DNA from: Alitta virens
Lineage: Eukaryota; Annelida; Polychaeta; Phyllodocida; Nereididae
Reading direction: 5' to 3'
DNA: 64,000 nt
Assembly: GCA_932294295.1 (NCBI GenBank)
Contig: OW028579.1
Span: forward strand, 4,125,370-4,189,369
This document shows, piece by piece, positions 10,690 through 59,892 of the stretch. Position numbers and translations under genes: made by a program. The notes under the pieces were generated by a model. The model had not been told where the DNA came from and did no database searches. It saw only the letters and a list, made by a program, of their open reading frames with translations. Positions within the stretch are counted from its first letter, which is position 1. Each line of letters starts with the position of its first letter.

Positions 10690-10880
10690 GACGAATTGTG
10701 TGTGGATGATTTGTACGTCAAAAATTCACGGCTTTTGCGAGGCCTGAATTTGTACTATAATCACTTTTCTCGGCTTCTATTAGTCGGGATCTTTATCAAA
10801 TTTGGTTTTTAAGTTGCACGTTTGTATCGCGGTTCTAATGGTGTGCAATTTATAGCTGTACCTCAATAACTGTACGAAAG
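10690..10880. repeat. Dispersed repeat, copy 1 of a family of about 170 bp
   Basis: The stretch from GATTTGTACGTCAAAAATTC through CTCGGCTTCTATTAGTCGG to GGTTCTAATGGTGTGCAATT is closely matched at 53370-53530. It lies in the intron after the last visible GLUT exon. Family not recognised. Confidence 0.7.
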
Positions 10881-11052
10881 CGCAAGTAAAACAGTTTTGG
10901 CAGGATTTCCCTATGTTTGAAACCGCTTTAGGTACACAGGTCACATGAGAACTATCTATATTGATGCAGTAACAGACACCATTCATAAAATATATTGATT
11001 TGACACTTAAATATTTTCTTACAAAATACATTATAAAGAACAAACTACTTAC

Positions 11053-11498
11053 AATATTAATTCCTGACAGCTGCTGACATATGTTCAGATTGTAAATGAT
11101 TATATTGTTGTCTCTTTTGGAATCCTTATTAGAAGTTGGGACTTTTTTTTCCCCTCCCTTCAATGGTTCAGTTTCGCTATGATCACCCTTCAAATTATTG
11201 TTTTCTGATGACTGTGTAGTAATTTCTTGATCCGTTATAGCATCCTCAGAAGTTTCAGCAGTACTATTTTTTATCTCTGGCTGATCATCAGTCTTCCTAG
11301 TATTGTTTACTAATGATTGTGTAGCACTGTCGTGTCCTGTTTTATCACCCTCAAAAGTTTCAGCAGTACTATTTTTGTTCTCCGGCTGATCATCACCCTC
11401 AGAAGTTTCAGCAAGAAACCCAAAGTACCAGCTTAAAATGGATACGATGCTTGGAACAGCTGTAAGTGCAAGAAGAATAGGCCAAAATCGTTCTTTAC
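11053..11498 (-). CDS. SLC2/GLUT helix-6, expanded acidic central loop and helix-7 start
   Basis: The 446-bp exon (phase 1 to 0) begins with KERFWPILLALTAVPSIV, which matches helix 6 of GLUTs, and ends in ICQQLSGINI, the helix-7 QLS motif, before a GTAAGT donor. Between them the usual PESPR motif and loop helices are missing. Instead there is a stretch of about 120 residues rich in Glu, Asp, Ser, Thr and Asn, built from imperfect repeats (AETSEGDDQPENKNST, AETFEGDKTGHDS, DDQPEIKNSTAETSEDA). The DNA repeats share the same pattern, so the loop grew by tandem duplication. The following exon (rest of helix 7) was not found at lower coordinates. Confidence 0.8.
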
Positions 11499-14400
11499 CT
11501 GAAATAAAATAAAAAATTCCTCCGTTCACCTTCACATTAAATAGAATCAGAAACAGATTGAGACAAGTATATAAATGCATTCAAATTTTGTTCCCCCTAA
11601 ATAAGAAAACAAGGATTATGAGCCCTCGCCCCATTAATGCAATTAATCATAGTGTCTGTTGTATTATCAGAAAAAACATCGAAATGCTTTACTACGAAAC
11701 AAAGATGGGTGTCAAACCACAGAATCTAATTTATTTTCTATATAAATGGGTTATTTTTGTTTATCAGTGAAGTCCATTGAAAATACCGCATTCTTTTGTC
11801 AGATTAGCAACAAATGTCAATTGACTCACGACGCTCGTCATACCTTTCTACACATCCCAAAATACCATTTAGTGACATTTTTCTTAGCTAGTCCTGGTGT
11901 CAAACATTTTTAAGCATCAAATTGTCCTTTTGTGTGGGGTAACTCCTTAAATATGTATTTCTTGGCCCCCAGTCCTCTATACTATCAATAATCGCTGGCA
12001 TTCGCCTGCCTTGGGGCATTCTAATAGTTAAACAAAGCCTTATTATCAAAAGGGGATTTTTTCCAAAGGAACTTACATACTTTACCCAGCTACCAAGTAA
12101 TTTAATAATCTTTCTATATTTTTAAACCTATTGCAAAAATGTTAAATCACGCAATAAGTGTATAGATATGTCTTGAATTTTTGTTGAGTTGTAGTTAGAG
12201 TTATCACTACTTCATGCCTGCATAATCCCGTTTTATAAATATAATAATCCCTATTTTGCGGTCACAGATGGCAAGTTGGATGAGAAACTTCGTTATTAAA
12301 CAATCAAACATATAACAACTAAATACAATGAAACAACCCAACAAAGTGAATGATTTGTCAAGCTCTGTTCTCATCATAATCGATTCATTACATCAGAAAA
12401 TGACAAATAAAAAGTAACAGCTATCTCTTAAAAGAAGCGTTCCCCAGGGGTCAGTAAATGTTTACATATAGCAAGGTCAGACCAGTCTTCAGTCAGTCTG
12501 GGTATTTTCATGGAATATTACACTGATGAATATTGTGGGTGCCTTGACCAAGTGGATAAGATGTTGGACTCGTACACGCAAGGTTGTGTGTTCAAACCCA
12601 GCCATGGCATGGAGGAACTGATCAGATCCTCCTTGAACAACTGCTTCACTCCACCCAGGTGCAAATGGGTACTTAGCTATAGGCAGTTATTGTAATTATA
12701 GAGTGCTTAGCCTGATGCGCTTACTACAGCTGCCCTGCTGTATACTTCCCCGGGAGTTGAGAAAGGCTCATGCTTGAACAGGCCTGCCAAGGATGTAATT
12801 GTAAAGTTGGTTGACTGTGACAACAGACTGTAAACCTATACATTTATACATTTTATTTCACATTAACAGTGGACCCTCCTAGTGGGAGCCCTCATGGTAT
12901 ATACGCAGTTTACGCACGTGATCGTAAACAAACCGTACACAAAAACCTCACTTTTGATCCAGAAAAAGGTAAAAGTGCATGTCCGTTGACATTCTGGATG
13001 GTCACCTAGCAACGACAATGAAAATGAGATTGAATGCAGATCAATCACTACGTCATACTGGAAAATGAGCGTCTGGATTCGTGACACATTTTCTCGGATA
13101 ACTTTCATAGTTTTTTCGATTTTCCAATTTGTGATTTTTCCAGAATGAAAAAATGCTCCTTTCCCCGAATATATAGTTTTAGCTGAAACATTGTCGCTGT
13201 AGTGTTGTTTTTTCGGCGATGAGCAACTACTTCCTTGTGCTAGTTCTTTTGCATATTTAGTGTTCTTACATTGAAATAGAATTAGACCTTTGTGTTTAAA
13301 AATCTATTACTAATATATTCAATTGTCAGATGTCCAGAACTGCCTACCAGCTCTTACCACACTTGGAACAACTGACCATGTCAGAGAGCATGCAAAGTGC
13401 ACTGGCGGATACAGCCCTGACTAAATATAGGCCTAAAGACTACTTCACCATTATGTACCTACAGACAGGCCCAAAAATGTACATGCATTTGAGCAGATCA
13501 GAAATGTCGATCCCAGCAATCTAGGAAAACATTATGTACATCTCTGGTACTATTGGGGGGGGGGGAGTAAACCATGACTTAAAGATGTCCCTCTCAGTCA
13601 TTCCATAGACATCACTTAAGTGGGGCGTGGCCAAGTGTGCCCAGTGTATATTTTAATTGCAATTAGGCGTTGTAAACAGTAAGCAACAAAGGGCCAGACC
13701 TAAACCCATGCATCTGCTAGTTATTGATTTAGCTACAAAAGTCATTAATTGTTGAAGCATTTCGAGCATGAGATCTTTAAGTCTGATCATTTCTATAATA
13801 TATTATCTTAATGCATATCATGCTATATGTATTAATGTTGGTTGGCCGCTGCACTAGACAATGTCTACATAATTATATTATTAAAGTAATCACACCTGTT
13901 TAAATGACACTAAGTTCAATTTCAATTCTAATTTCATACTTACCAAGACAAAACTGCAGGCCTATGATCTGAGAAAGGAGGATCCCACAAGTAATACCAA
14001 TCTGATGCAACACTAAAGCAGTCACTATGCCCTGGGGGATACCTTTTGCCCTTTTTTCGAGGTCTTTTAGTACAAGTCTGCAGCCAGCACCTGCAACACA
14101 ACATATAATAATTATGATTTCATGGGGTGTGGGTTATCTACAACATTTGACATGCAGGATGCACCAAAAAAAAAACTGCACACTTCAATGAATTCAAGAC
14201 ATATCTCAAACAGGAATACACATTTATCAAAGATGGATATATCAATTACAAAAGGGAGAAATAGAGAGATTATTTTTCAATGTGTCCACCTTTTGCTGCA
14301 ATAACGGCTTCTAGACGACCTCTAAAGGCAGAGCATGTACGCCGAATACAGCTGCAGTCATCTTTTGCCATATATTAGTCATTGACACTTTGAGGGCCTC

Positions 14401-17400
14401 CACCAATGTATGGGATGCTTTGCAGGCATCCTTCTTTACATTTGCCCACATGCTATAGTCCAATGCATTTAGATCAGTGGGAGCCACATTTCTTTTGTCC
14501 AAACTGCTACCATTCTTGCGTCCTTTTTTATGTGTGTGTGGGAGCCCCATCTTGCTGGAATACAAAATTCCCTTCAGGATAATGGGACTGTATCCATGGC
14601 TTGACTTTATTGCAGAGAATCTCCAAATAGACATCTAGATTGATCCTCACACCTGTGGGTATGAACACGGGGGCATCTTCAGATCGTCAGATGCCACAAG
14701 GCCAAACACCATGACTGATGCTGGGTGTTTTGTGCTGCTTTTGTATTTTACTTCATCACTGTAGTTTTCTGGATGGCTTCCTATCCATCTATCATTTCTG
14801 TTATTCATGGCAGCATCCATAGTGAAGATTTTCTCATCAGTGAAAAAGATTGTTCGCCTGGATGCAGCATGCTTCATATCATTCAGAAGAGCCTTAGCTC
14901 TTATCAGTCTAGCATATCTCTGCACCTTTATCAGTAATGGTACTTTTTTTCTTGCTCTTGACTTCATTTTTAGGTCTTCTTGCACTATTCTGCGCAAAGA
15001 TTTACGGCTAATTTTAAGCTCTGAAGCCATTTTTCTGACTGCCCTGACAGGATTTGACTTTATCCAGCGTTTGACCTTTGTGATCATGCCTTGTGTCCTC
15101 ACAGATCTTTTTCAACCAGATCCATGTTTTCTCTCATCTGTTCCTGTCCTCTCCAACTTATTTTTGATGTTATAGACTGTCCTTCTGGCTATTCCTAGCT
15201 GCTTAGCAATTGCTGTAGGACTCATCCTGGCATGTAAAAACTCTGCTACTGTTCATGTCTTCCTCATTTCTGTGACTATTGAAATGTTTTTAAGAGACAA
15301 TTAAGAGCCTTAACTGCTTTTAACCTACTTAAGGCGACCTAAACAAGCAATTAACCAACTCTGCAGTTGTTTGTTGTTGTTTTTATGTGCACCCTGTAAA
15401 AGCATGTCAAACCATATTGTACTATATTCTAAATGTGTTATCTTGTCGACTCTCCAACTTTATAATGTGGGGAGCAACAATTGTGTTTGGGTTTTATTAG
15501 CCCCTGTCTTTGGCTTTTTCGACATAGCTCAACTGAAACGAGTGAGATGGTTGCTAAAATTAAATTGACTTTTGGTAACCCTAAATTTTCATGATACTTA
15601 GCTTAATAATTCATCTCAGACAACTTACGTCTGCAGGTTGAAACTATAAATTTCAAATACCCTGTTACCAAAAAAGATAAGATTTACTAAAAGATTGTCT
15701 GAGATGTTCTCTCATTCAAGCATGATGCTAGACCTTAGTTGGTGTTGAAATGCTAAACTCCTACAACCTAACTTACTTTGTCACCTAGCCATATGGGTTT
15801 TATGATGACTTATCTTGGTATGATGATGGACACAGATAATAATAGCAAAGCTGCCCCCTTCCTTAATTCCTCAACAATCCCAAAGAAGCAGACATAATTG
15901 GTTTTACTGAATCATGGCTTAAAGACTCTTTATCTGACCCTCTATCTCCATTCCTGGCTACAAAATTGCAGCTCGGGGTGATCGAAGGTGGTGTCATCAT
16001 GTTTGTAGCTGATAATATACCATGTGACAAAGAGATGGTCATAATGGGAGCTTAAACATTGGCTGGTTTTGTCCCTCCACCATTTCTACCAGATGGACGT
16101 CTGTCATTGAATCTTTTGATCTCACTAAAATCATTCATGATGCTACTAGAACAGCTGAAACATCAAGTACATGCATTGATCATATATGTGACCCGATTGT
16201 GCAGCATGTAAAAGGTTGTTTTGGACTAAAAATGAATAAAAGCAGTGATGAGCATGTTTTTCGAGTAGTTTGGACATAGTCGATAAAACTGAAATAGGTC
16301 TGTAGTTCCCACGATCATGATTACTGCCTTTCTTGTGAAGTGGCACAACCTTGGCCACTTTCATATCATCAGGAAACATACCAGTACCTATGGATAAGTT
16401 CATTAGTCTGGTCAGTGGGGCTGCAATAGCTGATGAAGCTGTACACAATATTCTGGGTGATAAGCCATCAAGACCCACTGCTTTTCCATCTTGCAAGGAC
16501 TGTAAGTGCTTTATAACACGTTTTTCAGTGATGGAAGTGATTTCAAATCTGAGATTGCATCAGTTCTTGAGTTAATACACTTTTTCAGGACTTCATTTGC
16601 ATAGTTGGGGCTCTCAGGCATGTTTTGTACGACAGATGATGCAATGTTTGCAAAGTAGTCATTAAAACAGTCTGCAATGTTCTTAGGCTCAGATAGTGTT
16701 TCACCATTTGCCCCTGTGATGGTACTGGATTGATGGATTTATCTTTGGGTGTCACCTCTCTTAGGATGGTCCACAATTTCTTCCTATCTGCCATGTTTGC
16801 CTCAATAGTACTTCGATAGTAGTCTGATTTTGCTTTCTTTATGAGATTTTTCACCTTGTTTCTCCATAGTCGCCAGTTTGGAGTCTTTATTTTTGGCAAA
16901 CTTGTCTCTTTCCCGAATAGCTTCATCCATTTCTTCAGTGAACCATTCAGGTTGCTTTGGACGTTTTACTCGTCTTTGTTTCATGGGAGCATGGATATCA
17001 ACAGTGCCCATGAACAATTTATTTCAAGAGCTTAGCCCATCATTTGTATCATCGAAAGCTTCACAAATGCTCCAAGGTACACTTTCAAGGTCAGAGAGAA
17101 ATGCAGCTTCATCAGGTGCAATATTATTAGATCTGCGCAAAGCTTTTGACCTTATTGGTCACCAAATTCTTATCAAGAAATTGAAATTGTATAAATGCTC
17201 AGATCAAGCCATGAAGTGGTTCCAGTCTTATCTTCAAGGTCTATCCCAATCACCCCATTCAATGGCCACTCTTCTGGAAGACTACATGTGTCTGCAGGAG
17301 TACCACAAGGGTCCATATTGGGACCCTTGTTCTTCAATCTGTTTATAATGACTTGCCACTCTGTGTTCAGCACAGTGACATTGACATGTATGCGGATGAC

Positions 17401-20400
17401 AGCAGCATTACGTCTACAGCTAAAAGTGTCCCATAATTAAATGAAAGACTAATTGCGGATTTAATCAATATCGGTGCATGGTGCAATGACAACAGAATGG
17501 CTGCCAATTCATCCAAGACTAAATCCATCTTGATTACAACATGGCAGAAACGCAATTCTCTTTCTGATGATTACAAGAATCTGTCGTATTTAGAAAATGA
17601 AATCTTAGAAAACAGTGCCACTGAAAGGCTTCTAAGAGTACTCATTAGTCATAACCTTTCCTGGGATGAACATATTCAATATATTGAAAGAACAGTAAAA
17701 AAGAAGCTTGCCTTATTTCGCAGAATAAAATGCTGTCTCCCTCTTGCAGCCAGACAGCTCTTCTACAATACCCATATCTTACCCCATTTAGACTATTGTT
17801 CCCATCATCTGGGGAAGGTCTTCTTTCGTTAATCATTTACTGTTGCTTCAAAAGAAAGCTGCACAAGTTATTCTTGATATCACTGACTATGGACGCCCTA
17901 GCAGTGACATGTTCAAACAACTGAACTGGATGCCAACACACGGAAGAATCAATTTCCGTACAGCAACAATGGTTTTCAAAAGTGTGCACAATCTTGCTCC
18001 CTCTTACATGCGTGACATGTTTACGTTTTCCAGAGATATCAGCGTAAAACAAACAAGAAGTGTGAGCAGAAATTACATATTTTTACCTAGTGGCAAACTC
18101 AAAGACCTCCATATGTGAGTTTTGCTTATAGTGGTGCTCAGCTGTGGAACATACTTTGTCCTACTGTCTGCAGTGAATCTAGTCTTCGACTCTTTTAAGC
18201 TACCTGTATCAAAAATGATTTTAACAACATTGTTCTTAATCGAACATAATGGGTCCTGTTTTTAATCTATGCTTCTTATTGATTTGCTTGTATGTCTTAC
18301 TTTCATTTATCCCTCTGTATGACTCAAATTTTGTAGATTTTCCATACATGTATACTTTATATTTTATGCTAAATTTATCGTAATCATTGTTTTATTCTGC
18401 ATATTTTTGTAAATATTTTCCATATTAACATGTATTATATTTTTAAATCTCTTATCTATTTATTGTACATAGTTTTCATGGTAGTGTATTAACCTTTTAC
18501 TAACAGGAGGGCCATATGGAAGATAAGTGTTACACTTAATAGGTTTTACCCTCAAAAAATAAAGTTTATCTATCTATCTATCTTAATTAAACAACTTGTC
18601 ATATTTAAGCCTGAATTCAATTTGGTGTTGATAAATAAACTCCTGAAATATGATGTCATAATCTTATAAAACTTAAGTGGGGTCCTCACATAGCCAGTTT
18701 TACCGGTGAAACCGTATTGCTGTGGTAGAATTATGTAATATCCCATTTTGAAGACTTCACCATGGTTGTTGGAAGCAGAAAAGGGAGGCCTTAAGACGAC
18801 GGGTGAGTTGGCAGCAGTGAGGTGTGAATCACGGTCACCCGGCAGATCACACATAGGATATGTTCCAAACCCGACGGATGATGCCCGGTCTTATGCCGGG
18901 TGAGCCACGGGTAAATCACATTTACGACAGGAGACTTCACGGCATCTACGCACCACCCGCAGGCTTCTACATGTGAGGCGTATCAAGCACGTGCCAATCA
19001 TGACTGTGAAGGTTACAAGGAACGACCCGGCGAGTTAACCATGTGAGCTATGTGTACTACGTTTGAAGGCCAGCTCTCACGGTGGAGGGGCAGATGTGAA
19101 TATATAAGTGGCTGCTTGTCTGTAGCCTTCATTCTGCTCCTCGTTACCACAGAGGAAGGACCATAGCACATGTGGTAGACCAACCAACAGCCCTTGTAAA
19201 ATTGGCTCAGGCCAGCTTGGAATTAAATGTGCTACTAGCAGCTATTGCACAGGCTATTATGCACGATAAAGAACAGCCCAGAAGACCTGCAGAAAGAAAA
19301 CAAGCAGTCATTAAGAGAAGGAAAACGAAGAGATTTTGGGTGAGGCCATGGCTATTGCGAAGACCTCAGATGGGCCAATAGAAACGCATGATGAATGAAT
19401 TATTGATGGAGGATGCAACCCACTACAAGAACTTTGTGAGAATGCAGCCAGTCATTTTCCAAGAGCTGCTTGCCAAGTTTGGCCTAGAATTAGCAAGCAA
19501 GACACCTTCTGGAGGAAATCTTTGGAGCCAGGAATCAGGATTGCCATCTGGCAACTGGCAACAGCTACAAGTCATTGATGTATGGCTTCAGAGTGGCCCA
19601 CAACACCATCAGCAACATCATTCCTGCTGTTTGAGGCAAGATGGCCTCCCAAAGGAGGTTCACTCTACTATAACTACAAGGGCTTCTGTTCCATTGTACT
19701 CATGACTCTTGAGGATGCAGACTACAAGTTCATCTAGTATGTGGATTGTGGAGGAAATGGTTCTGGATCTGAGTTTTTGCTGCTGCAACCCTGAGGGAAG
19801 CTCTACAAGATGGGACCATTGGATTACCTCCACCTGAACCTATTGCTGGTGGAGGTAATCCAATGGTCCCATCTTCTAGAAAAGACTCTCCAGAGCCAGA
19901 AGAATTGTGGAAAATGCCTCTGGTATCCTGGCATCAAGGTTTAGCTGTCTGCTAACCACTATGCCCAAGAAAACCAAGACTATGGAATCTTTAATCTTTG
20001 CATGCTGCTGCCTCCACAACCTCATGAGAATCAGATATCCGACAACCCAGAACAACATGCTTGACCACGAAGATCCAGTCACCCATGAGGTCAATCCTGG
20101 GGCTTGGCGGGAAGCTGGAGAAATTCTATGCTACTCAGAGTGCCAAATTACAACGACTCAGAGGAAGGAAGTGTCCCATGGCCAGATGATATGATTTAAA
20201 GGTCCAGGTCCAGAAGACTGGTTGGTACCTGCAGGCTGGAACGTGGCAGCTGGAGAAGCTCCTGCAGGCTGTAAAGAAGCGATGTCTTGCTCATCATTGA
20301 GAGGTAGAAAAAGCTTCTCAGTCTTTCTTCTTGGCTTCTTCTGAGATGCAGCAGGAGCAGTGGTGGAGGAGGCCTGGGTGGCAGGAATTCACTGGCGTCA

Positions 20401-23400: not shown

Positions 23401-26400
23401 GTTAAATTTACTTCGTCAGACTTTTAGTGCATATCAAAAAGTTGATGCTTCAAACATGCAATTTTGAAGAGAAACCCTGAATGACCTTGCAAAATGAAAA
23501 TACACATCTAAAGTTTAAAAATGTTACTGCTTCAGTGGTGCAACTGTTCAACAGATGAAATGAGGAGCATTAATTGTAAATGGCCATATTTAGACTCTGA
23601 CCATAATAGGGCACCATCCGTTACATTTTTAAATTCTATATAATCCTTGTAATGTTAGTCATCAATGCAATTATACTACCAGGTCTGTGAGTTATATTTA
23701 CTGTACTTTGTAGGTTAAGCCTAAAAGGGAGAATGGGTTTCTTTGATATTTCCAATGAAATTTGACAATGTTTAACAATCCATACTTTATGCAGGCAAGC
23801 ATCAATCCAGTTGTCTAAGGCACTGCCATTGAAACAATCATATTTTTGTGACATAATACATTCATGAGCAATCAGGGTACCTCCTAAAATTTATATTATA
23901 ATACTTGTTGAATGTGTGTGCACTTCTTTTCTTTTCTTTTTTTCTTTTATTGTGACTGATACACTATTTAAAAAAAAAACATCCAAAAAAAACAACAATA
24001 AAAAGTAGTGTATCAGTCTTCACAAGACATGACAATTTGGTTACATAAATATTCAGGGACAAGCACATGAATAAATTTGAAAATTGAAAATAAGATTTAA
24101 AACCGTAGTACTTTGATATAATCTCTAAAGTCGTTAAAAAATCTAAACCTTTATCTGTATTTTATTTACATTGTTCAATGTTTTATTACCCCAGATATTA
24201 ACAGCATAATCCATTGTTGGTTGGACACATAAAAAGTAAATCCTACTCAAGGTGTGAAGTGGTGGTGGATTAGGGCTTTACGTCCTGTATTTCTGCACCT
24301 GATGGGCTAATTAGGACAGGCAGGAACCATGGCAATGAGATAAAGGATAAAACAGCCATCCAACTTAGGCTCGACTGGGAATTGAACCCGGGACCCAGCA
24401 GTAGGAAGCCCAGAGCACTACCGCTGAGCTAGGCCCCGCCCCGCCCAATGTGTGAAAGCTCTAATTCTCAAATGTTTTTCTACATAGTTATATTAGGAAA
24501 TTCTGTTAAAGTAATATAAAAGTAATTTAAATTTACATTTATAAATGCTCCTCTGACCTTTATTATATGCATAATGTGAATTATGAAAGGAATATAGACA
24601 TAGTATGCCATGATATGAGGAAAATTACACACACTTACAATTTATGTAAGAAATACATTATTTTTATGATACATGTGGTAAGTAGTCAGGACCTCATGCA
24701 GTGCTCCCATCTATAAGCAGTATGAAAATTAGGGTTACTGGATCACAATTTATGTTTGATGGGCTGATCCCAATAGTTTTTCAAAGTATGGGATATTTTT
24801 GTGTATTACATAAGTATATTACGATTTAGTGTATTGTCATATTGAAAATAGCATAAAGTCACTTACCACACCCAAATCCAACAATAAGACGTGCTAACAG
24901 AAGCATTTCCAATGAATGAAACATTTCACAGAAGCCGAATAAAGGAGCTGAGACCAAGCCAAATATACTGCAGACCAAAAAGGCTTTCTTCCTGCAAAAG
25001 ACAAGTATTTGGTCATTCCATGTCAAATCAACCAAGTACACTTTCTCAACTTTCACCCACAAAAGTTTCAACTTTTGCCCCACGACACTGCTTACCAGCC
25101 CCCCTAGTAGTTTTAGGTAATTAAATTCATAAATATTGACTGTACAGAGATGTTATGCATATTCAGGGATGTCCCTATCACAGAAACATCTATGCCGCAC
25201 AGAATATTGCAGTAGATGCAGTATTAATCGAGTAATTGACAAAAGACAATTTGTGGCGGGTGGTGAGCAGGCCGGGTGCCCAAATATGTATTATCTCTAG
25301 ACGTATTTTATGGTATGATCTGATCTCTTTTCTGCTCATGTTTTTCCCATTTGATTTTTTTGTATCTGTCACTGGCCAATGTAAATTGAATTTTCCAATT
25401 TATTTTGTTTGCATTGGAAATGGGGGAAAGGAGGAGGAGGAAAGGAGGAAAAGAGGAGGAGAAGGAGGAGGAGGAGGAGGAGAGGAGAGGAAAGGAGAAG
25501 GATGTGGTCACTCTTATTATAATGACCAGTGTAAATGGAAATGGAGAAAAGGAGAGGAGAGGAAGAGGAGGAAAAAAGGAGGAGAGAGGAAGAGGAGGAA
25601 GAAATGAGGAAGAGAGGAAGAGTGCAGGAAACTAGGAGGAATTCTTAGAATGACCAGTGTAAATTGAATTTTCCAATTTCTTTGTTTGCATTGGAATGGA
25701 GGAGGAAAGGAGGAGGAAAGGAGGAGGAAAGGAGGAGGAAAGGAGGAGGAAAGGAGGAGGAAAGGAGGAGGAAAGGAGGAGGAAAGGAGAAGGAAAGGAG
25801 GAGGAAAGGAAGAAAAGAGAAGGAAAGGAGGCGGAAGAGAGGAGGAAGAGGGGAGGAAGAGAGGAGGAAGAGAGGAGGAAGAGAGGAGGAAGAGGGGAGG
25901 AAGAGGGGAGGAAGAGATAAGTAGGAGAGGAGGAGGAGGATGTAGTCACTCTTAGAGGAAGAGAAGATGAGAGGAGGATGAGAGGAGGATGAGAGGAGAG
26001 ACAGAGGAGGAAGAGAGGATGAAGAGAGGAGGAAGAGAGGAGGAAGAGAATGGGAAGAAGAGGAAGAGAGGAGGAAGAGGAGGAAAGGAGGAGGAAATAA
26101 GGAGGAAAGGAGGAAAGGAGGAAAGGAGTAGAAAAGGAAGAGGAAAGGAGGATGAAAGGGGGCGGAAGATAGGAGGAAGAGAGGGGAAAGAGGGGAGGAA
26201 AAGAGGAGGAAGAGGGGAGGAACAGAGGAGGTAGAGAGGAGGAAGAGAGGAGGAAGAGAGAAGTAGGAGAGGAGGAGAGGAGGATGTAGGCACTCTAAGA
26301 GGAAGAGAGGATGAGAGGAGGAAGAGAGGAGGAGGAAGAGAGGAGGAAGAGAGGAGTAGGAGTGGAGGAGAGAAGAAGGAGGAGAGAAGAAGGAGGATGT

Positions 26401-29400
26401 AGTCATTCTTCTTACTTTCGTGGTGCAACACTGTCACTGTCAGGGTATGAAGCTAAAAATAGTGTATTCTTCAGGCATGGTGTGTTGTCGAGGCGCAAAG
26501 GTGTCTTGTGGTACAAAAGTACCAATAGTCCTCGCATGACCCTCTCAAATTTATTTTTTATTTTTTACACTTAAACACCATCTTAGATGGTTATATGCAA
26601 ACTTTGAAATGAATGTCACTAAAATTTCGGAAGTCACAACCTTTTAAAATTTAATAAATCAATGAAAAAAAAAACGTATTGTGAGTCATTTTTGGATTAG
26701 CATATTTGTAAAAAGTTTGGCAATATTGAACTAAAATCAAATTTGGACCTGTGTTAAAATCAGGCGTGCTGGGAGATCGATGTGCGACACCACCTATGCA
26801 GCATCATGAGTAGTAACCGTGAGAGAGGGTAGAGATGATGTCATTCACCTAAATTTTTGATATCTGAATTATTGTAAAACTAAACATGAGCTCAGCTGGA
26901 TAGCACAGCGGTTTAGAGTCAGGTTTGCTCTTCGGCCTGTTAGTGCACATGCTGTCTACTCATGGAATAAATTTGTAACATGGTGAGGACTCTCTCAATG
27001 GTCTTGTAAGCTCACTAAGTGACAGACCAGTGAAATTTAGAAATAATAGTTATGTATGAGTTTACCTTTATCAATTCTTGCCAACTAACCTGCCAAGCTG
27101 ACCATCCATTGCATCTGCAGCTGCTGAGCCTACACATCCACCCAATAAGTAGAGCGACACTGATGCAGCCCAAAGCCCTTCCAAGGAGTAGCTGTTTGGT
27201 TCATAATGCCATTTCTCTTCGAATGAAGTTCTGAGGAAGTCCTTGATTAGCTTTAAGAAAAGAATGCAAGAATGCAGTCATAAACTTACATCATTTATCA
27301 CCTTTGTCTTTTTCTTTCAATAAAAATGCGACTGGTAGCAATTCATTGTTCCAAAAATGTCATGCTGGAGATCAAACATCTCCATTAATGTTGCAGTTTC
27401 AAATTTTTTAAGTTGTTTTTCAGAAATCAGGCAATGAATAATCGCAAAGACAGACCGCAGTTCAAATTTGTGACTGTTATGAGTATAAACAGAACTCCTC
27501 ATATGTGATTTTCTTTGATCCCAGTACAGAATACCGTCAAGTTTTCAGAATTGATAGCAATTTTTTTTTAAATTAGACATAAATAGGATACCCCACTTTC
27601 TAAGTTTTTAGCAAATTTTCTCAAATTTAAAAACATTGTACATCTTATTTGGAGAACAGGCTATGGTACACACACAACCAAATCCTCTTCACAGTTATTT
27701 TGCCTGACTCTCAAGTTTTTGTGTGACATCATGCTTGTCGTAGAATATGCAAATCTTTTTAGCTAATTAGCGTAATCCAAGATGGCCACCATTAGGCAAA
27801 AGTTGAAAAACTGTGTGTGTGTGTGTGTGATTAGGGCTTTACATCCTGTTTTCTGCACCAGTTGGGCTAATTAGGACAGGCAGAGACCATGGCAATGAGA
27901 AGAAGGATGAAACAGCCATCCAACTTAGGCTCGACCGAGAATCGAACCCGGGACCCAGCGGTTGGAAGCCCAGAGCGCTACCTCTGAGCTAGGCCCCTGC
28001 CCTCAGAAGAACTAACTCCTCAAAATTTTTAATGAAAGTCTTTATGACTTTTTTGAAAATAATGCTATGGCCATAACTGTTGCCTGGGTACTACTTCAAG
28101 ATAAGATCTGAGAATTTTCCTTTCAAATAGTAAAAAATTATATGGGTGTCAATCCTCGGGGAAAAAACAAAAATCTTCATGATTTTTAAATCCCGAAGTA
28201 GTAGAACATATTTAAAGAATAAAGGGATTATAAAATGAACGAAGCATGGGTTTTTTTTTTATTTTGGCGTTTTTACCCCACTTTACAAAGCATGGTTGCC
28301 AAAACATGTGGCGCAAAAGCACGTGTCAATCACGACTGTGAGGGTTACAAGGAATGACCTGGCAAGTTAACTACGTGAACTATGTGTACTATGTTTGAAG
28401 TCCGGCTGTCACGGTTGAGGGGGCAGATGTGAATATATGGCTGCTTGTCTGTAGCCTTCATTTTGCTCCTCGTTACCACAGAGGAAGGACCATGGCACAT
28501 GCACTAGACCAACCAACAGCAATTGTAAAAAACACGTATGGAACACATATGGAATCAGTATGAACTATATACTACAATTCAGTCTTTATTTGACGAAAAT
28601 CGGACTAATATTATGGGAGCAGCAGCCTTTTAAAGTATATACAACCCCCCTCCCTGCCTATGCTGATGCTGACCCTGGTAGCAGTTGGCGAGTCACCCGT
28701 GGAACTCGGCGGATTACTCCTACTACCCCTCGGCTTACTCCTAGGACCCATAGAACCCGCCATAACGGTTATGCAACAGCTTTTTTTGCCGGGTTGGCGC
28801 CGGATTCTGGCTGCAAAAAGGGTTCTACGGGTGAAACGGCGGGTTCACTACGGCACAACCGGCTATGTGTGAAAGGGGCTTAACACGCTCGGTGAGTGCA
28901 TCACGCCCCTTAAGTTATGTAACACAGTTTCCCAACAGAATTTTGAGGTGACATTTTCAATAGTTTGATGTCTGATCAATACATTAAACAATTTAAAATG
29001 GTGTTTATTGTTTAGTGATTGCTATGTGTCATTTTAATGACATACAACTGAACATTTACTGAATGTTTTTTTTATTTATTATTTTCATTTGTTAAAAGGT
29101 CATGAACCTAAAGTAAAGCAAGCATGTATAGAACTCAATTATGGCATGACACTGCTAGCATGAAATTTTATGAATATTTTCTATAATTGCGTTTTGTTTT
29201 GTTCTTCTCCGAATTTGTAAAATTGGGTGTCAGGTCCACAATGTTACATATCAATTACTACAAATAATGTAGACTGGCAATGTGAATAACTACTTGGCTA
29301 AAAGCAAACACGATCCATGCAGTGTCATGTTTAAGAGTGTGCAGGGAAAACATTCTTAACTTCTACTTATTCAATTAGAAAAACTGGAGATAGTTTTCGT

Positions 29401-32400
29401 AAACTTACTTTTTGAGGGTTGTTCATGACACCTGTGTTCCATCCGTGGGGAAATGAGTTTCCAAACACTAGGATGGCTGCAGGTCCTATAAAGCCTGGTT
29501 TTTTCTAATGAAAACAAATTTGAGAATGTATTATATTAGGTTGAAAATTCATGACATCAACATATACAGCCTGAAAGGGAAAGTATTGTAGACGAAAAAA
29601 TATTTGCAGAGAGAATTAGCTTACAACATGGTATTTTGATTATACATAAGAATATTACGGTAGACTTCAAGCGGACCACTATTCTTGTGTTAGGCCCTAC
29701 TGCTGTCACAAGTTTATTTGGAGTTATCATATGAATCAATTCCATGGTGATCTGACACACCTGCTCATTCACAACTTCAAGCATCAATGTTATCACTGTT
29801 TCTGGTTCGATTTTGGTTCTGTAAAATTCTACAGAGCCTTTGTCTCTTATTCTAACTAAATAGGTAATACTATATTGCCTTAGTCCCATAGTTTTTTCAA
29901 AACTCCTTTTTCGGACCCGTTAAGATCGTGATTTGACAGTATTTGTTACATAGGTTGCCAAGCAACAAGGTCATGACTCGTGCAGTGCTGCCATAGGGGA
30001 CTGACTGCCCCTTTCCTCACGAAATTGATTTGGTGTAAAATTATGCATATGCGAAATATTTGTGCAGGAAAATACACTTACTTTTATGTCATTGCGAACT
30101 TCTACTGCCCTTTTAAAACCTGCAATGATCAAATATTGAAACATAAGTAGGATGGAGTAAGCAAAAATATTGGTTAAATCGGACACTAATGACGCAAGGA
30201 TTCGAGCAACAAAAATGTTAGTCAACTGACTATGAGGGATATCGCACTTATTTAACAATTTGTATTATTGTTTGGTTTGTTTAAGTGCTCTCATTATGCA
30301 AGTAAATCACTGTTTTGTAGAAAAGTATATTGGCTGCATAATAACTTAGAAAATCCTTCGTAGCGTTCACTTGTTCTATAAGATGATTATCAATAAAAAT
30401 GTTTATACATTACATGTAATATTGTTATTGCTAAAATGCATACAATTTTTTTTTTTTTTTTCAATTTTAATGATAGTTGATTTGATGCAAACCAATCAGA
30501 AATGTTCACCATTTCTAAATTAATTTTTTTCATAATTTCATTTAAGTTTGAGCCACGCATAAATGCATTTGTGACGTCAAGAGAAAAATATAAAATTTAA
30601 AATTGTACTGACTGAGTGTCAATCATTTAAGTATAGTAAAGACAACAGCGGACCAAGTATTGAGCCCTGGGGGACACCGCACTTTATCAATTCATAATTA
30701 GGAATAACTTTGTTTAGTATTTTACCCTGTTCATCATTAGTTGTGTCAACTGAATAATATCAATTGAGTTCTAACTTTTCATCCTTCACTCAACATAACA
30801 TTTTTAGGTGGTACTATTGAAAATAGTTATTAAATATGTTTTCGATTTAAAAAGGTTTGGGCAAACATTGTATGTTCATTAAAAACATTTTGCTAGCATG
30901 TTGTTGGCCCCCACATATGCTGTCCAAAAACGTCTAAACAGACGTTCATAAAACCTGTTACGCTTGAAAAAGTTTTTTTGTGTTGGTTGTGTATGCATAA
31001 TAGCTTTTTGGTCATGCAATAACTGTGGCTATCTCACTTCAAAGTAAAAAAACCAATACCATGCTTACTTATCGCGAATAGGATCACAAAAATGGCAGTG
31101 CAGATTCCAATGAACCAGTACAGTGGTACATCTGGAAATATTCTCAAAAATATCATTTGCAGTGAAAAAGTACAAGGTAAACAGTAATATCAGAATAAGC
31201 ATTGACATAACATGTGAAACAGAAAGAATGCAATTCTTACTATCAGTGATCATGTATACGGGTAATGGCAATTCTTCAGGCACTGCAGGAAATAACAAAG
31301 AATATAATACACATCTTTTGTTTTTGTGTGCGTTTTAAATACCAACTTAATAATTCTTTTTTTTTTCTTTCACGATTGAGCTAAGGCAACTCACCAGCCT
31401 TGAAAAGGACTATTGTACTTAGCTGGTTCATTTTTCCACCAACTTTATTATTTGCAGTACATGTCCAATTTAAAGATTGTTTACCAACCATGTCACTGGT
31501 TATATTGAGCGATCTACCTTCAACCAATTGTCCTAAGAAATAAAAATGGCAAAATTAAATTACATTTTAATCTGTAACATGAAAGCACCTTTGCAGTTTG
31601 CAAAAGCAAAAATTTTGATAGTGGAGACTGGGGCAAGATGAAACGTCACAGTAAATTTGCACAATTTACAAATTTGTTGCAGCTGCCATCTGTTGGCATT
31701 CATGTTCTTTCAGTGACCCCATAAGTCATATCATGCAAAAGCTAGAGGTTTGTCTACAAGGGCAAAGGCAAGTTTGTCTTTCCCTTACAAGAATCACCAA
31801 TGCAAAATGAATGAAAAGAAAATACTTTAAACAATTTAACGGGGGTGACACATGTTACTGTTGCATATACGAAAGGAAATTTCCACCCGTTTCCTAGTCA
31901 CAATACTGCATGAATATCACTGAGCCACATTATTGACACAAAACAGCTCTCGGATCAAGATAAGCTTGTTATTGGTTGTCAATCTAGGTGATACATTTGT
32001 TAAATTGTTGTTACATTTGCATATTCCAATTGACTTGTCAAACATTATCCAAGGCACTCATCAAAAGGTATTTGTGAAAGCATTGCAATCTGCTTAAAAG
32101 TTTTGTTTGCTATGAAATAAATGTGAAAAAAAAAGTTTATTGATATGATAGGGCAAATTACAGTATTTTATCTTGCCCAAATTGGTGTATTATCTTTCTT
32201 GTCTGTACTATTTCTAAGACGCAAAAAAAACAAGTTCAAACTATATTATTTTTATACAATTTAATGATCTGATTGCTTCAAATATCAAAGACTATTTTCA
32301 TTATAGTCTTCTTTTTTTCAACTTCGACCAGTTAATATAATGACATAAGAACTTAGCTCTACAGTGACAACTTCTTGTGATTATTACGTTAGGAATTAAT

Positions 32401-35400
32401 GGAATACCAATTCTCTATACCATACTTCTTGATAATACCCGACTTTGCAGATCAACATTTTGATTTCACTCACCTGGGGTGTCTTCATTTTGCCATTCAA
32501 ATTGTGGTTCAGGGTTGCCTTTGGCATCACAAGTGAGAATGGTTCCAACTGTGTACTCTTCTTGCAAAGGTGAGGCACTGATGTTGCGTACTGAGTCTTT
32601 CAAAGAAAAACAAAATGTTTGTAAAAAAAATACCATCTTCCATTACTTGCATATTAAATCTAACAATCTTTTGAGATTTTTGATGCGCCACCTATCACCA
32701 TATTAAGTTGAAGGTATCAGCTTTGCGTTTAGCTAATGTGGTTTATAACATGCTCATTTCAAGAGCTATTCTAAGATTTATGTAAGTTCAGTACCCTACT
32801 GCAAGAAGAAAAGACCTCAATGTTTGCATAGGCTAGTAGAGATATGAAAACATTAGGCTCAACCCGAAACAAATTCCAGCAGAAAGAATTCCAGTGACAT
32901 TTGAACCATGTTTGAAAACAAGGCCATCAGTGATCAATTGCTTGTCGACAATGTCATGGAATATGCAGCAATGCAAAATATTGCCATCAAGTAAGGATAA
33001 TGCCAAAATCTAGTCATGTGCATGAATGAACTATATCCTGAATTTCTGAAATCGCCTAACTAATTTGACATATTTAAGTTTGCAAGTTATAAAGCCATAA
33101 TTTAAGGAGAGTAAAAATATTTGTTTTATAAAGAATATGGCTACAGATACGAATTCCACATTCAAGCACTTTAATATTACGATATTGAACGAACCAAGAC
33201 ATTTAAAGTTTTATCCAGATTTTCGATTAAAAAAAGTATGAAATAATAATACGTTCAGAGAGTAAAACTGCTATTATTTAAATATTTTAGTGCAAAAATA
33301 CTCATGCCTGTAGGCATGATGCCTGTCAGATATGGAAAATTGGATAGGGCCCGTTTTGCTCCATTAACTAAGGAAACTAGAAACAAGTCAGTTAAAAAGC
33401 ATGCGATTTTCATCAAAAAACAATAATATTAAATATGATTTCGTTTATATGATTTTTTATTATTATTCTATATTTCTGTTCAACTGATAAATGTCGGTAA
33501 TTAATATTAGCATGTAAAAGAGTTCAGTGACAATAAAAAAACTTTGATTCTGTTTCTGAAATGAAAGTGTCACACAGAGCTTGGATTCTTCATGCATGAG
33601 AGATATCAACATTAGACGCGTGGTTATAAGAATAATGAATATTAAACTTACACTGTACATTCACTTCTTTAAAAGATGATAAACGCTCATCAGGATTCTT
33701 TGTAGTTATTTCACATGTAAACCTCTTGCCATCCATGCTGGCTTCTACTGCGGTTTCAAAGACCTGATGTCAGGGGATGGAAAGATGTGTATTTTAGAAG
33801 TTTTATACAGCAAAATGGATAATGTGCGTATACTAATATTAACCAATGTTACCTCAGTAGGTATTATTCCTCAGCAGATCAATGTATAACAGTTGCTTTC
33901 CATATTGCACAAAATTATTGTCAAAACATATTGCCCCAATCATGGAATTTGGTAACTTTTCCCACTAAACCTGAGGGTAAACACTCATAGACCAAAAAAT
34001 ATGATAAAATCACTCAAGCAATTTATATTATGGTTTCCAGTTCTAGAAGTCAAACATAGTATGTATGACATGTTGTTCCTGAGATATGAGAGTTCTTATA
34101 ACTTATGTAATTAGGTATTAAAAAAGCACGATTCATGAAAAAACAGTTTACCCTCATGGTTTAAGTCTCGCACAAGACTTGTTGAATATACGTTACAAAT
34201 CAATACTCTAAACATGTGATATCTACCATTGTTACAATAGGAAAGTATCCTGGACGTTGATTGATGTCTAGTGACAGATTTATTGGAAGGTTGACAAATG
34301 CCACTTGATTAGATACAATTAACTGGATTATTCAACTCTCATATCCGGAGCACCAATGCACCATCAACCATTTATAATAACTACTTACCTTGTTCATATG
34401 ATAATGATCACCATTGTACTTTTCAGATGATTGTTTTTCCAAATGATCCCCATCAAAGCCCATTGTGAGTTGTGGACGATGATCAGGAGAAATGTCTTCT
34501 TTTTTGGGCCCTCCATAATTTGCTTTACACGTGTATGTTACATTTTCACCATCTATTGGTTTGGATGCACTGGTAGTAATAACTGGGGAGCCTGAGGAAA
34601 GAAAATTAGCCTAAAGATTGAGGTCTTCTTTAATATGACATTTTCCATCAGTTCATTTTAATTCATCTGTTACACCATAACCATCATCTTATTACCATGC
34701 ACCTAAAATTTCTGAATGAACTTTAGCTTGTTTCAGAGCATTGGTTTGATGTTATCATTATCAAGCATGTCTTTGGAGATATTTGTTTTCTTTTGTGGTT
34801 TCCCTTCACGAAGTTTCCATTGAGTAAAAGTAAGGGATTTGACAACGCCACTCCAAAGCCTAAATCTTGTTTCTGACTTATTCCTTTATATCAAAATCCT
34901 GATATAATCATCGTTTTTCACTAATTCTGCTAAGCACCCCCAACCCACTGGAACAGAAGCAATACAAATGCATGATTCTTTCTCCGTTTTGCTTCACTGT
35001 AAGTTCACTAATTAGCATGTTGAAATTCGTAGGCCTGACCAACTTCCTTCCAAACATACTTAGCATCCTTATGGCTGCACAAGTCTAGTTATTTTCTCAA
35101 CGCACCATAAAACTGTCTTTCAACAATTCTCCTTTTTTTTAGGAGATTTCTTAGCCATTCACATGGCTTTTCTGTAGTGGCTTCATTCTTTCTCAGTAGC
35201 TTAGTGACCCTTATTGGCGATTCTCCTTTTAGTCATCCTGTGTTTCTTTTTTACAATTCTTTTTCTTTTTTTTTTACTAAGATTCTGCATTTTTTCGAAC
35301 ATATATAACATCAGACCAAAAATATGTTTAAAAATAAGTTAAATTGTTTTCAAATGTGTCTGAGAAAAATAAACATGCCTAGTGGCAGATAAATACATGT

Positions 35401-38400
35401 TTAATAGTGGTTATCATTTCAGTTTAAGTGTATGCAAAGTGTTTACCTTAACTGTATTTAGCTTAATTTATGTCTAAAATAGACTGCAGGAAAATATATC
35501 GCATTTTTGGTGAATGACATTTATTGAAATTATTGCATGTATTATATTCAAACTTTACCCACCTAGCACAATTAATTCAGCAGGTGAATCATCATTTACT
35601 ACTGAACAAACATATTTTCCTCCATCAGAATACTCAAGTTCCACGACCTCCAAGATGAATGTGTTGCCCTTCTGCCTGACAGTATACTTCTCGGTACCCT
35701 TGGGGTAATCCACGTCACCATTTGTGTATAAGTAAATGGGTGAGTTGTTGAATTTCCAAATCATTGATTGGACAGCATGCTCACCTAATATCACTTCACA
35801 CACAAACTTAGCCACTCCTCCAATGGTCTCTGTTGCATGATCAGGAGGAGTGATGATTGACTGCCCTTGAGCTGCCCCTGAAAATTTCAATTAGAATAAT
35901 AATCCGAAGAAGATAGTTTTTTAAGGTCATTTAACTGTCATGACCTTTCTTCTGGTTAACCACCATGGGTCTCACATGAACTTGTTCATTTCACAACTAA
36001 ATATTACAAGTGTGTTTTATCAATTCTGAAATACTGCAGTACTTTTGTATCGTATTATATATATATATATATAATATGTGTTTAAACCTCCTCGTGAGAG
36101 CAAACACTGCCTTAAATGCATGATAAGAGGAGTTAAATCAATATTCGCAATAATTAGGAAATATGTCAGGGTAGTAGTTATTTAAATCCTTCATAATCCT
36201 TTGGCGTCGGGATATAACCAACAAAAATGTTAGTTAACACCCGGTTATAATTGAAAAAACTTTTATTTTGAAGCATTGAAATAAGATATATGCCTACCAG
36301 TTCAGAATAAGGAGACTGATGGTTGATTTCAGAGCTCTGGCTCAGCGAAAAACTATCGTTGTAATCTATCTGTCTATCTATCTGTCTATCTATCTATTTA
36401 TAATGGATGTACAGAAAGAATTGTATCCAATTTATTTGATAACTCTTTGGGCATGTTGAGTGTTTAGTGAATAGCCAGAATTGGAAATACTTTTTTAATA
36501 CTAAAGTAATTGTAAGTGTCTTAAAGTAAACCAAACCCAAGATCAAGCCATCTTTGATATATAGCCTACAACTCTTGCTATACTGCTTTATGAAAGAAGA
36601 TCAAAACACATTTTTTCTGAGTTCTGTAGCTTAACTGGTTACTTACTAAGAGGATATGGATATAGAAAGTAATTGTAAATATTTAAAATCATTTCAATTT
36701 CAGGGTAAAAAAAAATGAAAGAAAGATTGATAACAAACCAGACTAACAATTATAATTAGTTTAGGAGAACCATGTTTCACCAAAACTGAATAATAAATAG
36801 ATAAAACAGAACGGAAATCCTGTTTTGTGAGTAATTGTGTACTTTCCTGAAAACCATATGTAGATAATAAAAACAACACGGGTTAAAGTACGTTTTACAC
36901 AACACGTTACAGGAAATTTCCTCATTATGAAAGATTTGTTCATGTTCACTGCCCATTTCAGTGATATAAATAAGATCATCCATTGGCTATGGCCCACAGT
37001 TCCAGTCCTCAACATGAGGGCAGTTTCATGGAAAATTGTACTACTGTTGCTATTTCTATGTACTGGAATCAACGGGAATGGCACATGCCCAGATACAGTT
37101 TCTATCGACTGCGAACCATATGATATTATCATCACAGGCATCAATGCCACATCACCTACTGTTGAGAACATCTTAATGCAGTGTAATGCTCAACCAGAAT
37201 GTGAAGTTCACAAGCCAAGCGAAGACTGCGTTTCATTAAACCACTTCTGCAGAAAATGTGAGTACCAAAAATAATAATGGTGGATGACAAGGAGAGCAAT
37301 ATAGAGATTTATTGGATGAATAAAGCTATATAGGCCCAATATTATATAAATACTCTGCATCCAATAAAACCTATATTGCACGCCTTTCTAACCACCATTT
37401 GTTATATATTTTCGAATGAAAGGTCACAGGTGATTCGAAAAGCCACGTTTTTTACAATTAATTTCTTTTAATTGGACAGTCACATGACAAGGATGTTATA
37501 CATGTATAAATTTTGTTTCTGCACAATTAATTTTTCAATCCAATAAAAATGGTTGCTGACAAATATAACTTATATTGGGCTGTCAGATAGCATGAGTGAA
37601 GAGACCTGATTGGGCAAGCACATTTCATTTGAGAATATCTTCCTATATGTATATGTTTAGCCATATGCATGGTTGGTACTCATTGATATTGCAAATATTA
37701 ATATACCAATTTAATAGAATGTTGATTTGAAAGACAACGGGGAATTGGTGGCAGTTGTTGGTCCCAATTTGTGGCATTCAGCCATTTATCTCAGAAAAAA
37801 AATCAGTTTTGCAAACACTACAAGTTTACTATGTGAACTGCATCTACGATATCGCTAAATACATTCAAATGTATTGCCAACCATGCAAGATGGATCTAAG
37901 TTAAGAGTACTTGACTGCTTTATAAAAGCAACACCGATAGGCTTAGGCCTTTTTGACATCCTATTATTTTTGTGAAATAAAAATTTGAACTGTTTTGAAT
38001 TAAAGACGTGTATTATCTTCATTTGTGTCTTCCTTAATTGATATTGAGTAACTTTGAATAGACAACCATACCATTGGGTTGAAAGTAGCTGGGTTAGTCG
38101 TGCAATCCACATATTAGAAGATGTTTCTTTTACTGTTTATTGCAAAGTGGGTATCAATTATCTATTTATCTACTTGAACGGGAAGATGAAAACTAATTTC
38201 GACATATATCAGTTAGGTGCACTATCTTAAAACAGCTTCAGATTTAATAAATCAATCTGATTATATAGACTGTTCATAACTGAACAACTTTTTTCGTCTT
38301 TTCAGCCAACAATGTACTAGAAGTCAAAGGAAATACTAATTCCTCACGGTCCGCCAAGACTTTGTTGAGCATTGTGAGCGAGGGCTACCGCCAAAGAGAG

Positions 38401-56412: not shown

Positions 56413-56794
56413 GCATACAAGCCACAAGGGCAAAGTAATGAGCAACTGAATGAGAAAACCCCGGGAGAGAAACCAATCAGACAGATCAGATAACTAAGTG
56501 AGAAGATAGAAGGTGACAGCTGAGCGATAGGTAGTGAGAATAGCTAGGCAAGGCGGTAGGGAAAACGCACACCGCACAGAAAGGGCGATTAAGACCAAAA
56601 TAGAGTAAACTAATTAGCAAGAAATAAGAAAGTTATAGAAGAACTAAGAAAACACATTAGACTATTACGGAAACAGAGCACTTATGAACAAACCTGGGAA
56701 TTAAAACGAAGGTATTAGAAAGGGAATTAAGCACTAGAAAAAAATAAATAAATAAATTTCCTTTTTTCAAAGATAGACAAGGGAATCACTAGAT

Positions 56795-58021: not shown

Positions 58022-58911
58022 TACCAGCATACACGGCAGCGGAGCCGGGACCAGGTGTACCTAGATATCAACCCATGCCGCCTATTCCACCCCGTCCTAC
58101 CACCAGTGACCCGACGCTGGTGATCCAACCTCAATCTCAGCTGGCCACCCCATCAGCACCCTATGGACCCACAGCATACAGCAAACCCGACATTCCTCAG
58201 AACATTGCAGCATCAGGGAGTGACCAAGCAGGGGGGAATGATCTACTAGCCAAGGGGGGCCAACATATTAATCAGTTCATGACAAAGCCCATGATGGAAG
58301 CACAAAATGACCAAATAATTGGCCTGGCTTGTGACCCAGGGGGCATACCCACAGAAGTCAACAACTCACTTTTGCCTATTTCCAGAGCTAACTATCAGCC
58401 CACACAGAGCCCACCCAGGGCAGAGGCCGCGATTCAAAGGCTAATTACAACGTTGAGACCCAGCCAGGAGCTGACTGAACGCCATGTGAGGACCACAGAT
58501 CACCAAGCAAGTATGATGGAACAATACCAGACTAACCCATGTAACGGGAATGCCCCATCAGATCAGACTAACAATAGTGACCTGATCCAATTCCACGAGG
58601 TTCCACCTGTGACTCAAGTTGGGCGATCAATGCATACACAAACTAGCCCCATGGAGGATGAGAGCCAAGCGGCGTATGGACGAAATATGTCAAATTCAAG
58701 CTGGGGACAGTCAACAGTAAACGCTGCTTATGGTAAAACAGAAGCCGCTAGTATGGAATCAGAGGAAAGAAACGCCAGGAAGGTCACGCGCCCTGACCTC
58801 ACCAAGGTCACCCAATTCTTTCCCAAATCATATGATGGTGAAGGTAGCGAGGGCCGAGCCAAGGGGCATTGGTTGCTGTTTGAAAAATTTCTTAGAGTAT
58901 CATGTTATTGA
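58018..58911 (+). CDS. Retrotransposon second ORF (Pro/Gln-rich, runs into the capsid start)
   Basis: 297 aa, low complexity, rich in Pro, Gln, Thr and Ser. The last 40 residues resemble the start of a Ty3-type gag capsid domain (FFPKSYDGEGS, HWLLFEKFL). The capsid similarity then continues in the other frame, so the ORF probably ends by a frame change near 58890. Confidence 0.65.
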   Translation: MIPAYTAAEPGPGVPRYQPMPPIPPRPTTSDPTLVIQPQSQLATPSAPYGPTAYSKPDIPQNIAASGSDQAGGNDLLAKGGQHINQFMTKPMMEAQNDQIIGLACDPGGIPTEVNNSLLPISRANYQPTQSPPRAEAAIQRLITTLRPSQELTERHVRTTDHQASMMEQYQTNPCNGNAPSDQTNNSDLIQFHEVPPVTQVGRSMHTQTSPMEDESQAAYGRNMSNSSWGQSTVNAAYGKTEAASMESEERNARKVTRPDLTKVTQFFPKSYDGEGSEGRAKGHWLLFEKFLRVSCY

Positions 58912-59872: not shown

Positions 59873-59892
59873 AAAGGGGATCAGAGTGTAAA

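Follow-up and report, generated by a model that had tools for sequence, protein, structure and literature searches.

A 64-kb stretch of the genome of the polychaete Alitta virens (the window; contig OW028579.1, here C7, positions 4125370-4189369) contains on its minus strand a gene model that joins three immunoglobulin (Ig) domains and a transmembrane (TM) helix in frame to a GLUT-type carrier. Comparison of genomic sequences indicates that this model very probably belongs to one chimeric Ig-GLUT gene family with a single fusion origin, a multigene family and not a single oddity. A single chain had been proposed in a first-pass annotation of this DNA, and it stands as the best interpretation, on grounds other than those given there: the arrangement recurs at four loci, the Ig-linked carriers form one clade, and coding changes cluster across the junction. 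The genome comprises 671 Mb in 23 contigs, and loci are named here by contig (C4, C6, C7, C11, C14 and others).

Structure of the predicted Ig-GLUT gene

The first-pass annotation had described thirteen exons in consistent phase running from 35877 down to 11053 (E1-E8 on the Ig side, G1-G5 on the carrier side; Table 1), and this description was borne out. All thirteen are bordered by an AG acceptor and a GT donor, and the joined frame has no stop in 669 codons, while the other two frames have 43 and 61. Splice sites were scored with matrices of approximate frequencies. Between the TM exon and G1, E8 was the sole stop-free candidate of 12-300 nt leading from phase 1 to phase 0 (acceptor at least 4, donor at least 3). 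The proposed union of three Ig domains and a TM helix with a GLUT was likewise recovered: Pfam searches of the joined chain gave Sugar_tr (E 2.3e-24, 86.5 bits; cut-off 22.3) and Ig_3 in three stretches, and E1 alone matched V-set with 29.0 bits (cut-off 26). The Ig domains are of V-set and I-set type with paired cysteines, and C26, C90 and W40 are invariant across three aligned V-exons. The solved structure closest to the carrier part is GLUT3 (5c65, E 1.1e-33).

GLUT helices 1-7, as annotated, hold for the window exons G1-G5, but they mark the limit of the window and not of the gene. Five more exons, G6-G10, were found at C7:4116663-4110749 (window coordinates -8706 to -14620), ending in a stop; a search for C-terminal GLUT exons inside the 64-kb window found none. 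The full chain from E1 to G10 comprises 856 codons including the stop, without a signal-peptide exon. G6-G8 align to a canonical GLUT, and G9 and G10, with the last helix, were assigned by eye; the helix count rests on the alignment of G1-G8 to residues 35-448 of P0001 and on the placement of G9-G10 by eye. A GLUT ending within the window was set aside once G6-G10 had been found. The frame of G5 does run open for 90 codons beyond its donor (10780-11052) to a stop at 10780, which is a possible short alternative end.

Recurrence of the arrangement

The order of a 63-nt TM exon, a 38-nt exon leading from phase 1 to phase 0 and a phase-0 GLUT exon is shared by C7, C6:26.9 Mb, C6:21.95 Mb and C11:17.8 Mb, the four loci at which E8 was read. 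The GLUT exon measures 96 nt at C7 and 102 nt at the other three, and it lies 577 bp from the 38-nt exon at C7, 1840 bp at C6:26.9, 655 bp at C11 and 397 bp at C6:21.95. The linker encoded by the 38-nt exon reads FKRAVEVRNDIK at C7, YKRAVAIKDSFK at C6:26.9, LRRVIGITSEFK at C11 and FKNASTILTKYQ at C6:21.95. Stop-free 38-nt exons were sought by a scan with limits chosen after the exons were already known (acceptor at least 2, donor at least 4): every one of the four loci gave exactly one match, and the four control stretches gave none; the same scan for 63-nt TM exons gave matches in three of the four loci and in no control. The controls comprised 3.0 kb of a C4 Ig gene and the stretches that precede three carriers, namely the C4 GLUT (7.8 kb), a second C4 GLUT (1.5 kb) and the canonical GLUT (2.6 kb).

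At C6:26.9 Mb the Ig exons lie 5' of the GLUT exon on the same strand, and the V domain is 57-58% identical to that of the window. Compared with this C6 paralogue, E8 was the top-scoring segment between the TM exon and G1 (52, next 33); 19 of 20 shuffled controls scored 32-42 and one reached 52.

Linkage and phylogeny

The genome search with the Ig part returned 129 matches (117 of 388 candidates scored), and the GLUT list covers 77 of 139 candidates. Among the matches listed, V-exons occur at no fewer than 103 places, at least 91 of them on C4 (0.7-48.7 Mb). C4 harbours a very large family of V-set Ig receptors related to E1, perhaps with an immune role. Outside C4, twelve V-exon loci are among the matches listed, and eight of them have GLUT exons on the same strand about 3-14 kb downstream: both C7 copies, C6:21.88, 21.92, 21.96 and 26.92 Mb, C11 and C14. 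The other four, on C6, have none at such a distance among the GLUT matches listed, and at C6:21.92 neither the V-exon match nor the GLUT set is complete. The best six V-exon loci by E-value, again among the matches listed, are the two C7 copies, C6:26.9, C11, C4:31.17 and C14; the Ig-GLUT link at C4:31.17 is unproven, because the V-exon lies 46 kb from its GLUT. These linkage counts share ancestry and are not independent of each other.

In a tree of the carriers (239 columns) the Ig-linked loci form one clade (ultrafast bootstrap (UFBoot) 98, FastTree 0.948), which is sister to the canonical GLUT of the same genome (UFBoot 95, FastTree 0.933). The clade also includes C4:31.2, where the link is unproven, and C14:9.16 Mb. 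Branching within it is poorly supported (35-46) except for two near-identical pairs. The tree omits C6:21.92 Mb and C11:0.1 Mb, each covering 60 of 239 columns where 85 were required, as well as the loci on C5, C2 and C8.

Substitutions between two near-identical copies

A second copy of the whole gene (copy B) lies about 120 kb from the window copy (copy A) as part of a duplicated block of about 53 kb, which ends near 38057 within the head-to-head neighbour gene; identity in the main aligned blocks is 96-99%. Divergence amounts to 1.04% in introns (489 of 46899 aligned bases) and to 1.83% in exons (47 of 2565; Fisher p 5e-4). Of the 45 coding substitutions counted, 44 are nonsynonymous (p 9e-5 to 8e-6 for kappa 1 to 3); the count omits G5, which holds 2 nonsynonymous differences and a deletion. 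Codons 303-352, which cover the stem, the TM exon, the linker and G1 up to its eighth codon, contain 15 of the 41 changed codons, and none of 5000 shuffles was as dense. This hot spot lies mostly on the Ig side (13 of the 16 changed codons of 302-352). Copy B differs at 3 of the 42 bases of E6, each difference being nonsynonymous. In E8 it is 6 of 38, again all nonsynonymous and flanked by nearly identical introns, and E8 thus behaves as a coding exon. The two copies are either paralogues or a haplotype that the assembly retains twice, and the substitution pattern holds in both cases.

Motifs of the carrier half

In GLUT carriers helix 6 is followed by PESPR, loop 4-5 contains E-x6-R, loop 8-9 contains GRR and the C-terminus contains PETKG. 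The C7 copy has AETSEG in place of PESPR, KDLEKRAKGIPQG in place of the E-x6-R of loop 4-5 and VATWR in place of GRR. At the PESPR position the other loci read PESPQ (C11), PESPK (C14 and C6:21.89), PKSPA (C4:31.2), PDSPR (C6:26.9) and PESPR (C6:21.95), and some motifs are retained at other Ig-linked loci, for example PESPRY and PDSPRS. Several residues lining the sugar site of GLUT (Q161, Q282, Q283, N288, N317 and N411) have counterparts in the window copy in the SQ of helix 5, QQLSGIN, GIIN and LLNW. They are not kept everywhere: C6:21.89 has CQELSGIR, and C11 has GLIY for GIIN. The C6 paralogue (L054, 1500-1740) carries a repeat expansion of its own, NSATGKDNASDKMINDAPEKET, in the same cytosolic loop as the acidic repeat of C7.

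Counter-evidence and alternative gene structures

A number of observations weigh against a single Ig-GLUT chain. The Ig/GLUT junction is a prediction from genomic DNA. No fused relative was found in the protein database, where the carrier search gave 33 matches among 8000 scored and Pfam showed all 33 to be carrier-only. Searches of 5.8 billion proteins with the Ig part and with the junction gave 0 of 1393 and 0 of 806 fused or Ig relatives; the latter result says little because even plain GLUTs were missed, that is, the search was insensitive. The upstream signal-peptide exon of the first-pass annotation could not be substantiated: in 35878-42000, candidate exons combining an ATG, a hydrophobic stretch and a phase-1 donor amounted to four weak rows, two of them one and the same frame, and none was convincing. 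No Ig or E8 exon was found within the 7.8 kb before the C4 GLUT. The GLUT at C14:9.16 Mb (C14:9157394-9160369) is nearly identical to that of C11 and has no V-exon match among the matches listed; it may be a recent copy made without the Ig part. G5 of copy B (C7:4015476-4015916) has a 5-bp deletion within the acidic loop that disrupts the frame, and the product of copy B is probably truncated. The further objections come from the junction introns and are given below with the gene structures that they would favour.

Two arguments of the first-pass annotation turned out to carry little weight. An ATG is indeed absent from G1, but this was rejected as evidence for a fusion because the canonical GLUT of the same genome (C6:20.95-20.97 Mb) shares it. 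There the homologous exon starts with GRVTLPLAV directly after the acceptor, with an in-frame stop 7 codons 5' of the exon and no ATG between. Vertebrate class I GLUT genes share this build. The match of a phase-0 donor with a phase-0 acceptor does hold, but at a single junction it has a chance of one in three, and a phase-0 edge is ordinary.

The first of these points would suit two neighbouring or interleaved genes, an Ig receptor with its own tail exon and a GLUT with its own first exon or with an ATG just before G1, the phase match being due to chance. The C7 intron offers material for both ends. The acceptor at 29570, which scores 10.7 against 1.5 for that of G1, would continue the Ig frame in phase as NDIK-AVYVDVMNFQPNIIHSQICFH-stop. 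The frame 29889-29761 begins with an ATG and ends on a strong phase-0 donor; the two strands of the 64-kb window together contain six ATG frames that reach 35 codons or more and end on a donor scoring 9 or higher, three of them in retroelement frames. Three of the four differences between copies A and B in this intron fall within 29889-29761 and would alter amino acids, as in a real exon. The other three loci have an in-frame ATG 12-22 codons ahead of G1 and no intervening stop; a GLUT-only product from a transcript started in the intron, and left unspliced there, is therefore possible at these loci.

However, no single solution recurs. At C7 a stop lies directly before G1, and the frame 29889-29761 is not present at the other three loci, whose junction introns offer MKKK, ME or nothing as an ATG exon. 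The C7 frame moreover overlaps a dispersed repeat matching C5, C6 and C12, and the tail reaches a score of 29 in a comparison with the C6 intron, lower than every one of the 20 shuffle maxima. Two genes would also have to be duplicated together and retained as a pair at four loci, at one of them 397 bp apart, with the length of the 38-nt exon unchanged. We therefore consider separate genes quite improbable. A further candidate first exon beginning with MMNR at about 30740 was rejected; it lies inside an apparent reverse-transcriptase fragment (by eye).

The same sites could be used within a fused gene, which would then make an Ig-only product ending in the 29570 tail and a GLUT-only product from 29889 in addition to the chimera. 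This alternative overlaps with the single Ig-GLUT chain. It would fit the C7 interval, where the strongest acceptor and donor are both usable in phase and the acceptor of G1 is weak (1.5), but such ends are found only at C7, and we rate this alternative as fairly unlikely. The tail stretch differs at 0 of 66 bases between the copies and the flanking exons at many; this neither supports nor excludes alternative ends.

Finally, a decaying pseudogene cluster might have lost its GLUT motifs at C7 for want of selection. The frameshifting deletion of copy B and the loss of PESPR, the loop 4-5 motif and the GRR of loop 8-9 at C7 would fit such decay. In contrast, copy A is open over 856 codons, and a nonsynonymous to synonymous ratio of 44:1 together with exons that diverge beyond their introns points to selection for change and not to an absence of selection. 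Decay is accordingly very improbable.

Proposed origin and function

The gene would encode one membrane protein with a signal peptide (not found), three extracellular Ig domains, one helix, a linker of some 18 residues in the cytosol and a GLUT-like carrier with 12 helices. The predicted topology is consistent, with Ig domains outside, the helix, the linker in the cytosol and a carrier whose amino end is cytosolic. Exon borders and the tree suggest that the family arose once, when a GLUT1-type gene received exons 1-8 of a V-set Ig receptor of the large family in place of its start-codon exon, with phase 0 joined to phase 0. The fused gene would later have been copied to several chromosomes and evolved fast. 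If true, this would be a case of exon replacement creating a new type of surface molecule.

The Ig head may act as a built-in ancillary subunit, a covalent counterpart of the service of basigin to MCT carriers, which would place the carrier at the surface and let an extracellular ligand influence it. The C7 protein may sense or bind and not transport normally, because the gate-forming cytosolic motifs are mostly gone and several sugar-site residues remain. We tentatively propose that the Ig head serves the carrier as a built-in partner and that the C7 protein has shifted from transport towards sensing or binding. More doubtful is the wider idea of lineage-specific Ig-SLC2 receptor-carriers, born once, whose carrier domains are now sensors or ligand-controlled gates and whose junction is under positive selection like that of immune or self/non-self molecules. 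That the junction evolves fast, and nearly always with a change of amino acid, suggests a role in recognition or a contest with microbes, and would tie the sugar-carrier fold to recognition.

Coordinates and other features of the window

Table 1. Exons of the window copy (copy A) and candidate alternative exons of its junction intron, in window positions.
Feature	Position	Strand	Description
E1	35563..35877	-	V-set Ig domain exon, phase 1-1
E2	34389..34591	-	second Ig domain, first half; conserved in C6 paralogue
E3	33652..33763	-	second Ig domain, second half; C6 paralogue compared
E4	32474..32596	-	third Ig domain, part 1
E5	31395..31532	-	third Ig domain, part 2
E6	31241..31282	-	membrane-proximal stem
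E7	31069..31131	-	TM helix exon, 63 nt; 63 nt in 5/5 copies read
E8	30082..30119	-	cytosolic linker exon, 38 nt, phase 1 to 0, FKRAVEVRNDIK
Candidate first exon of a separate GLUT	29761..29889	-	43-codon ATG frame, phase-0 donor 10.1, possible start of the GLUT's own
Candidate Ig tail	29505..29570	-	strongest acceptor of interval (10.7); 21-aa Ig tail and stop
G1	29409..29504	-	GLUT helix 1 exon, phase 0-0, without start codon
G2	27090..27250	-	GLUT helix 2 exon
G3	24867..24991	-	GLUT helices 3-4 exon
G4	13944..14090	-	GLUT loop 4-5 and helix 5; sugar-porter loop motif lost
G5	11053..11498	-	helix 6, acidic repeat loop replacing PESPR, helix 7 (QQLSGIN kept)

Upstream and head-to-head with the Ig-GLUT gene lies a neighbour gene on the plus strand (37014-43262, by eye) with a signal peptide (MRAVSWKIVLLLLFLCTGINGNG), a membrane stretch near 41500 and a long acidic tail with PYVDIDVG. 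Three of its exons were tested, and none gave a Pfam match above the cut-off. The interval between G2 and G3 contains a long CT-rich repeat (25400-26430), and the intron between G3 and G4 an apparent transposase of the Tc1/mariner type (14300-15300, minus strand, by eye). Long frames resembling a retroelement of the Ty3/gypsy type were seen near the edge of the window (56777-63820, plus strand, by eye).

Comparison with known systems

The carrier half resembles class I SLC2 carriers (GLUT1/3) in its Sugar_tr match, in having GLUT3 5c65 as the closest structure, in keeping QQLSGIN and in its place in the tree beside the GLUT of the same genome. Unlike them, the Ig-GLUT chain is extended at the amino end by three Ig domains and one more helix, and the C7 copy is without PESPR, the E-x6-R of loop 4-5, the GRR of loop 8-9 and the C-terminal PETKG. 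The Ig half shares the exon plan E1-E5 with the one C4 V-set Ig receptor read (L058, 3 kb, its tail outside), whose V-exon is 42% identical. The C4 family differs in that GLUT matches on C4, among those listed, occur only at 31.2-31.3 Mb, far from nearly all V-exons. CD47 differs in having five helices, and the V exon of the window gave no match to the Pfam family V-set_CD47; we know of no carrier homology for CD47.

The first-pass annotation knew of no family with an Ig ectodomain and an SLC2 carrier in one chain. This agrees with the open-licence literature searched, the excerpted text of which describes no single chain or fusion of Ig and carrier. Each part comes from a known family, and the combination was not found in that literature.

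The nearest functional parallel is basigin or embigin with MCT carriers, in which an Ig ectodomain with one membrane helix likewise serves a carrier of the MFS. Carriers such as MCTs need Ig partners, held by membrane contacts only. Basigin carries a charged residue in its membrane helix, which is absent from the TM helix of the Ig-GLUT chain (VPLYWFIGICTAIFVILFAI). According to a published study, basigin enhances MCT trafficking and modulates transport (PMC12894981). In those systems the two are separate chains and the partner belongs to SLC16 and not to SLC2, whereas here the predicted gene structure joins the Ig part to the carrier. A covalent Ig-carrier, if true, would be a natural test of what an Ig partner does for its carrier.

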